DNA of 64,000 nt from Hyphomonadaceae bacterium (GTDB lineage: Bacteria; Pseudomonadota; Alphaproteobacteria; Caulobacterales; Hyphomonadaceae). This document shows, piece after piece, positions 33,528 through 35,276 of the stretch. The stretch is from assembly GCA_024742355.1 (NCBI GenBank), contig JANSYM010000011.1, forward strand, positions 1 to 64,000, read 5' to 3'. The notes under the pieces are model-generated. The model saw nothing but the letters and a program-made list of their open reading frames with translations. It did not search any database and was not told the origin of the DNA. The translations under genes were made by a program, and so were the position numbers. The stretch's first letter is position 1; each line of letters begins with the position of its first letter.

Positions 33528-35276
33528 ATGTCGTTCTGGATCTACGAACATTTCAGCAAGAAGCGCGCGCGTCTGCATTCAAGCAGCTGCCGTTATTGCA
33601 ATGATGGTCAGGGCGTCGGCGGCGACCAGACCAATGATGATGACAAATGGCACGGCCCGTTCAGCACGTATGCTGAAGCCGAAGCCGCTATGCTGGCGCT
33701 TGGTCATAAGGACGCGCGCGCCTGTGGCACGTGCAAGCCAGGCCAAACCGACGCTAAACCCGCTGCGGCGCCTGCCGCTGCAGCCCCTCAAACAACCGCT
33801 GCCCCAAAGGCGGCCCCGAAACCTAAACCCGCTCCTAAGGAGACGTCTCGCATGGACCTTTCTAAAGCGACTGGCCGCGTAAGCCAGGTTATCGGCGCTG
33901 TTGTCGACGTTGAGTTCGATGGCGCCCTTCCGGACATTCTGAACGCCCTCGAATGTGAAAACAATGGCAACCGCCTCGTCCTCGAGGTTGCTCAGCACCT
34001 CGGCGAGAATGCGGTCCGCACAATCGCCATGGACTCGACCGAAGGTCTCGTCCGTGGTCAGGCTGTCGCCGATATGGGTGAGCCGATCAAAGTGCCGGTT
34101 GGCCCGGCCACACTCGGCCGCATCATGAACGTTGTTGGTGAGCCAATTGACGAGCGCGGCCCGGTCGAGACCGATCTGCGCGCCCCAATCCATGCCCCTG
34201 CCCCAGACTTTGTTGACCAGTCAACAGAAGCTGAGGTTCTGGTCACCGGGATCAAGGTTATCGACCTGCTCTGCCCATACACCAAAGGTGGTAAGATTGG
34301 TCTGTTCGGCGGCGCCGGTGTTGGTAAGACCGTTCTCATTCAGGAACTGATCAACAACATCGCGAAACTGTTCGGCGGTTACTCTGTGTTTGCTGGCGTC
34401 GGCGAGCGGACACGTGAAGGTAACGATCTCTATTACGAGATGCAGGACGCCAACGTGATCGATCTCGAAGGCGAAAGCCGTGCGACCCTGGTCTATGGCC
34501 AGATGAACGAGCCTCCAGGAGCCCGCGCACGTGTGGCTCTGACTGGCCTCGCCCAGGCTGAGTATTTCCGCGATGTCGAAGGCAAGGACGTTCTGTTCTT
34601 CGTCGACAATATCTTCCGCTTCACCCAGGCTGGTTCTGAGGTGTCTGCGCTGCTCGGCCGTATTCCGTCTGCTGTGGGCTATCAGCCAACACTGGCCACT
34701 GACATGGGCGGCCTGCAAGAGCGGATTACGACGACAACCAAGGGGTCGATTACGTCTGTGCAAGCCGTTTACGTGCCTGCAGATGACTTGACCGACCCAG
34801 CGCCAGCGACCTCGTTTGCGCACCTTGATGCGACGACCGTTCTGAACCGTGCGATCTCGGAAAAGGGTATCTACCCAGCTGTGGATCCACTCGACTCCAC
34901 ATCACGTATTCTCGATCCCCTGATCGTTGGTCAGGACCACTATGAAGTGGCCCGCGGCGTCCAGGAAATCCTGCAGCGCTATAAAGAACTGCAAGACATT
35001 ATCGCCATTCTCGGCATGGACGAACTGTCTGAAGAAGACAAACTCGTCGTTGCTCGCGCCCGTAAGGTTGAGCGCTTCCTGTCTCAACCGTTCGACGTGG
35101 CCGAGGTCTTCACCGGCTCTCCAGGCGTCCAGGTGAAACTGGAAGACACGGTTGCCGGCTTTAAAGGCCTGATCGAAGGTGAGTATGACCACCTGCCAGA
35201 GCAAGCTTTCTACATGGTTGGCTCGATCGACGACGCGAAAGCCAAAGCTGAAAAAATGCTGGCTGACGCCGCCTAA
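33528..35276 (+). CDS. atpD: ATP synthase F1 beta with extra N-terminal Cys4 domain
   Basis: The catalytic F1 subunit: from residue 109 ([15 protein letters not shown]) to the end it is a normal 474-residue beta chain with P-loop [17 protein letters not shown] and [15 protein letters not shown]. In front, in the same frame, are a compact domain of about 72 residues with Cys21-x2-Cys24, Cys66-x2-Cys69, His17 and the core [15 protein letters not shown], and an Ala/Pro/Lys linker of about 35 residues. Ala/Pro/Lys extensions occur on some alphaproteobacterial beta subunits; a Cys4 domain before it is unexpected. Both starts have ribosome sites: GGAGG before 33528 and AAGGAG before the internal ATG at 33852, so long and short chains may both be made. 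Confidence 0.93.
33837..33854 (+). promoter_or_regulatory. Internal ribosome binding site and start in atpD
   Basis: AAGGAG at 33837-33842 lies nine bases before the ATG at 33852, where the conventional beta subunit begins. A perfect palindrome GAGACGTCTC (33840-33849) overlaps the site and could fold over it. The arrangement would give a standard-length beta chain independent of the extended one. Confidence 0.6.

Follow-up and report, generated by a model that had tools for sequence, protein, structure and literature searches.

The atpD locus and its extended reading frame

The window (the whole stretch of 64,000 nucleotides analysed here, from a Hyphomonadaceae bacterium) carries a single-copy gene for the ATP synthase subunit beta (atpD), which has one match in its own genome and sits between the frames of atpG and atpC. 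The features of the locus are the following.

32643..33524, + strand: atpG (gamma subunit) frame, named from its own sequence without a family search
33512..33516, + strand: GGAGG, early ribosome site within the end of atpG (anti-SD duplex -9.5)
33528..33740, + strand: Cys4/His domain, H-x3-C-x2-C ... C-x2-C, residues 1-71, predicted strand-strand-strand-helix-strand
33741..33851, + strand: Ala/Pro/Lys-rich, Cys-free linker of the translated frame, residues 72-108
33830..33845, + strand: inverted repeat CG-CTCC-TAA-GGAG-a-CG across the internal ribosome site, a weak hairpin
33837..33842, + strand: AAGGAG, the internal ribosome site, which encodes Lys-Glu in the long form
33852..35276, + strand: short beta, the conventional AtpD, from the internal ATG through the stop codon (TIGR01039)
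35334..35735, + strand: atpC (epsilon subunit) frame, downstream, named from its own sequence without a family search

The early ATG of the long atpD frame follows the atpG stop after a gap of 3 nt, and the frame (33528-35276) runs without a stop through 582 aa, made up of a domain of about 71 aa, the linker, and a normal AtpD. The model TIGR01039 (F0F1 ATP synthase subunit beta) matched residues 115-577 with 831 bits, against a cut-off of 462.85; over these residues the product is an ordinary AtpD, and it differs from that family by 108 extra residues with the Cys4/His domain and by a second start. Translation placed H17, C21, C24, W41, C66 and C69 in the domain, in agreement with the first-pass annotation, which had described an early ATG 324 bases (108 codons) ahead of the conventional start, CxxC pairs at 21/24 and 66/69, a His at 17, an 11-residue stretch (here located at 41-51), and an Ala/Pro/Lys linker between domain and AtpD. 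The two ribosome sites that it had reported were likewise found: GGAGG ends 11 bases ahead of the early ATG, and AAGGAG ends 9 bases ahead of the ATG at 33852. The early GGAGG is also part of the atpG end (LIEIISGAEAL), which is common to most domain-less genomes. No second domain copy was supported in the same genome, where the other hit reached only E 0.72.

Conservation and history of the fusion

Across Hyphomonadaceae, the proposed fusion held in many close relatives and was missing from many others: the domain was present in 40 of 105 family genomes, and 59 of the 98 family genomes with an AtpD core match showed no domain match (one of these 59, G052, is cut inside atpD, so that presence cannot be judged there). 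In 39 of the 40 (39/98 atpD-bearing genomes) the domain was joined in frame to atpD, giving frames of 580-684 aa; in the 40th (G003, left out of the tree and of the codon counts) a contig end cuts the frame, which is still in frame past the internal Met. The early ATG lay 0-23 nt behind the atpG stop in 39/39 fusions. The four Cys, His17 and W41 were kept in 40/40, with exactly four Cys per domain, and the Cys residues thus withstood the check that had been set beforehand as capable of refuting the fusion. The linkers measured 33-76 aa (counted from residue 71) and, over 39 genes, took 18 distinct lengths, each of which preserved the frame, and no in-frame stop or frameshift separated the two parts in any of the 40 genes. 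A sequencing error hiding a stop, which the first-pass annotation had raised, is excluded by the other genomes that carry the in-frame fusion, and a chance frame or assembly slip is ruled out by the 40 of 105 genomes and the invariant Cys/His residues. Median dN/dS was 0.13 for the domain vs 0.07 for the core (189 pairs from 31/39 genes, the other 8 being left out because domain length differs), rough numbers in that dS was near saturation. By sequence comparison, the domain is under selection.

The history of the fusion was explored with a quick-search tree built from codon positions 1 and 2 of atpG+atpD in 94 rows, in which the chosen outgroup did not form one side of a branch and G102 was a long row. 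The 39 fusions and 39 unfused genes formed one 78-row clade (97*), and the 16 rows outside it were all domain-less. At least 7 gains or losses of the domain were needed on this tree, 5 of them forced by starred branches. A domain-less genome, G018, groups with the window in a 7-row set (97*) and keeps CTCCTAAGGAGACG ahead of the same ATGGACCTTTCTAAAGC. Among the domain-less genomes, 55 of 59 were read (G052, G090, G091 and G096, with cut frames, were left out); in the domain-less members of the clade the short beta is the only beta. Since 59/98 atpD genomes show no domain and the tree suggests several losses, the domain is dispensable.

The leader CTCC-NNN-GGAG was found in 31/39 fusions, in 38/39 domain-less genes within the clade and in 0/16 genes outside it; the sole in-clade domain-less exception, G001, carries a different leader. 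Gains and losses are not distinguished by parsimony alone, but this retention of the leader in domain-less members of the clade, and in none of the genes outside, makes one gain followed by repeated loss the simplest history, which the data fit without proving it.

The Cys4/His domain and its relatives

The AlphaFold2 model of the domain was compact, with the order strand-strand-strand-helix-strand (pLDDT 87.3, pTM 0.78); the full-length model was of low confidence (pLDDT 42.9) and contained the same domain elements as the model of the domain alone. Foldseek found no significant match in the PDB (the first was N-Ada, 1u8b, E 1.1, TM 0.36) and only weak matches among viral models (the first a homing endonuclease, E 0.061), and a PDB sequence search gave weak matches only (best E 0.52). 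In Pfam and NCBIfam no model passed its cut-off on residues 1-108, and NCBIfam at E 0.01 gave no match for the 26 relatives of an alignment of fused and stand-alone copies (A4), in which Y6, H17, C21, C24, G27, G29, W41 and G43 were invariant. A conserved, zinc-finger-like Cys/His ligand set was present in 40/40 fusions and not in all distant relatives: L064 is without one Cys, and L093, L094 and L096 have CxC for the second CxxC.

Two curated families were considered and rejected. The Ada N-terminal zinc domain (PF02805) shares the CxxCxP end with the window domain, but its rows read CxxxC where the latter has HxxxCxxC; it was absent from the Pfam matches, and hhalign gave 3% probability over 12 columns. 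DUF6233 (PF19746) weakly matched residues 48-73, and 7 of 11 members matched (best E 6.2e-5); the score of 19.5 bits (residues 1-75) stayed under the cut-off of 27.6, and the H-x3-C-x2-C half was unmatched.

Sequence searches recovered relatives of the domain in 35 of the 299 order-sample genomes (7 outside the family), in at least 6 of 385 of the class sample and in at least 7 of 398 of the phylum sample, the window genome being included each time; at most 15 (class) and 14 (phylum) candidates were scored per genome in the latter two, and weak relatives may be missed. The 37 loci in named genomes comprised 24 AtpD fusions and 13 others; these 13 were stand-alone frames, from alphaproteobacteria, Chloroflexi, Planctomycetales and further groups, except for one in which the domain is followed by an arylmalonate-decarboxylase-like protein. 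Stand-alone relatives occupied stop-to-stop frames of about 75-130 aa, which bore out the resemblance to small stand-alone proteins noted in the first-pass annotation; the database search of the N-terminal part that had been proposed thus yielded such relatives, and no curated model over cut-off. These small Cys/His proteins, found in records of Zavarzinia, Sphingomonas, Sphingobium, Marinicaulis, Bradyrhizobium, Chloroflexi and Planctomycetales, contain the same domain as the window gene and differ in not being joined to atpD. No AtpD fusion outside the family was seen in the order, class and phylum samples or in the named-genome loci, no neighbour was common to the stand-alone copies in the 13 loci read by eye, no relative was found in phage records or viral contigs, and none of 5 proteins tested matched a defence system.

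Other contexts were also observed. Relatives lie at the C-terminal end of transposase-like frames (L046, L048, L049 and L050), of which two were scanned with Pfam: L048 was IS1-like at the cut-off and L046 below it. In a Dehalococcoidia record (L088:3989-4999) the domain stands ahead of an arylmalonate-decarboxylase-like protein (PF17645), and in L045 and L047 a copy stands behind a region that looks like GIY-YIG by eye (Pfam gave 0 families for both). Two rhizobial plasmids, from Mesorhizobium (L152) and Bradyrhizobium (L153), hold relatives in stretches without a listed gene, one of which has an IS3 transposase and an integrase no more than about 4 kb away. The domain family is a sparse, uncurated family of small proteins, found also alone and behind IS1-like transposases, and its spread over unrelated contexts suggests a general-purpose binding module that would not be specific to ATP synthase.

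Ala/Pro/Lys extensions of AtpD, which the first-pass annotation had described as known in alphaproteobacteria, were seen in 2 of 9 readable frames (11 long class frames were fetched; L176 and L181 had no readable core). The window linker is like these two examples, L179 and L180 (genomes G105 and G513), in composition and position; unlike the window gene, they lack Cys and are not preceded by a folded domain. Three further frames, L172, L173 and L174 (G464, G432 and G462), are extended by about 80-86 aa ahead of an internal ATG. By eye these extensions bear no relation to the Cys4 domain; the early ribosome sites of the three frames are strong (-8.6 to -9.4), the internal ones weaker (-5.8 to -5.9). 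Extended atpD genes may have arisen more than once.

The internal start and a dual-start reading of atpD

The peptide just ahead of the internal Met is mostly APKET plus two more residues, and its Lys-Glu pair was spelled AAGGAG in 32/32 genes vs 5/43 other Lys-Glu pairs of the same frames. Both of these leader codons were invariant at the codon level, and 0/36 other invariant Lys/Glu positions (4 in the domain, 32 in the core) and 23/355 other invariant positions over all amino acids used a single codon (29 genes, 3 of the 32 being left out because domain length differs). The remaining 7 fusions spell the site AAG GGG, GGG accounting for 1/302 Gly codons in their cores. The anti-SD energy at the internal ATG was -8.0 or lower in 39/39 fusions and reached -7 or lower at 0/304 control in-frame ATGs of the cores; at the early ATG it was -7 or lower in 27/39 and weaker than -7 in 12/39. 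These codon and anti-SD counts come from related sequences and are not independent, and the pattern is seen in two differently spelled lineages. The gene thus has two in-frame starts, each with a ribosome site, and the internal site is conserved beyond coding need, at the codon level; selection of its own acts on the internal start.

With moderate confidence, and from sequence comparison, we read atpD as a dual-start gene that yields a long beta from 33528 and the ordinary short beta from 33852. Initiation at 33528 would give a long beta composed of the Cys4/His domain, a flexible Ala/Pro/Lys tether and a complete beta, and initiation at 33852, on the conserved AAGGAG, would give the ordinary beta. 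The short form would be the indispensable one, because domain-less lineages start there, and the long form a conserved optional variant, which would hold the domain out on a mobile arm where beta has its N-terminus, probably at the crown end, to judge by the structure of F1. Both proteins are probably produced; the long form could be rare, given the early sites weaker than -7 in 12/39 fusions. The mixed population of long and short beta chains suggested by the first-pass annotation is thereby supported as the best reading, through the fusion, the conservation of its Cys/His residues and the two usable starts.

How the two starts might be related was examined through the inverted repeat. A hairpin formed by CTCC-NNN-GGAG could hide the internal site until ribosomes elongating on the long frame open it, which would fix the ratio of long to short form; we consider this rather unlikely. 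The distribution of the leader within and outside the clade speaks for it, as does the constancy of the arms: the distinct leaders (21, taken from 70 genes) hardly differ there, and vary at one loop base and in the flanks. The stem is short, and the hairpin over the internal ribosome site is weak (-5.4 kcal/mol for the 34-nt leader); the exact repeat is absent from 8/39 fusions; such an action would be impossible in domain-less genes; and covariation did not exceed that of shuffled alignments (133/500 reached the covariation score, 139/500 the number of paired cells). Because of this last result, we hold only lightly that the repeat could couple the two starts. The repeat at 33830-33845 is conserved also where it is untranslated.

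A second explanation is that only the short form enters ATP synthase and that the upstream part is a small free protein, released by cleavage of the linker or left as the long form is degraded, and kept because its coding part lies ahead of atpD and couples the translation of atpD to its own. The existence of stand-alone versions of the domain would suit such a protein, and so would a long, variable, Cys-free linker, as expected of a cleavable tether, and an internal ribosome site inside an inverted repeat that an upstream ribosome could open. A free protein would have no need of a frame kept open through 18 linker lengths, and no stop or frameshift has come to separate the parts in 40 genes, so that we regard this explanation as unlikely. 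It is improbable, to a greater degree, that only the long form matters, with the start at 33528 and the internal AAGGAG as a relic or coding accident: the early ATG closely follows the atpG stop in all 39 fusions and the frame is never lost among 40 genes, but the choice of AAGGAG (or of the rare GGG in the other 7 genes), the near-constant anti-SD energy at the internal ATG, and the domain-less genes that start at the internal site are hard to reconcile with it. An artefact of assembly or annotation, or a captured mobile domain that is run through neutrally, as the relatives behind IS1-like transposases and on the two rhizobial plasmids might suggest, is very improbable in view of the 40 genomes of separate species, the low dN/dS and the invariant Cys/His residues.

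Under the dual-start reading, the domain most likely binds one zinc ion, as its Cys/His pattern indicates, and would be a module that docks or senses another molecule. As F1 has three beta subunits, an enzyme could carry anything from zero to three modules. More tentatively, and as a doubtful possibility, the organism would build F1 with a controlled mix of long and short beta, in which zero to three zinc modules on flexible crown arms couple the enzyme to a signal, metal or redox, or to a partner molecule, the mix being set on one mRNA by the internal ribosome site. The same genome has a zeta-type ATPase inhibitor subunit (PF07345, G000:C4:118905-119210, - strand), so that the domain is no obvious stand-in for known control.

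A literature search, at the level of titles and abstract openings, found no report of a Cys4-AtpD fusion, which is weak evidence of novelty in that subscription journals lay mostly outside its coverage; passages of PMC7050145 did not concern such a fusion.

The finding points to a small, uncurated family of Cys/His domains that occur alone or attached to unrelated proteins. Beta ranks with the most conserved of all known proteins, and a domain on it that is folded, conserved and apparently lost several times over, together with a conserved second start, would offer a natural system in which to ask whether bacteria tune ATP synthase through forms of a subunit, with the domain-less sister species as ready-made controls.
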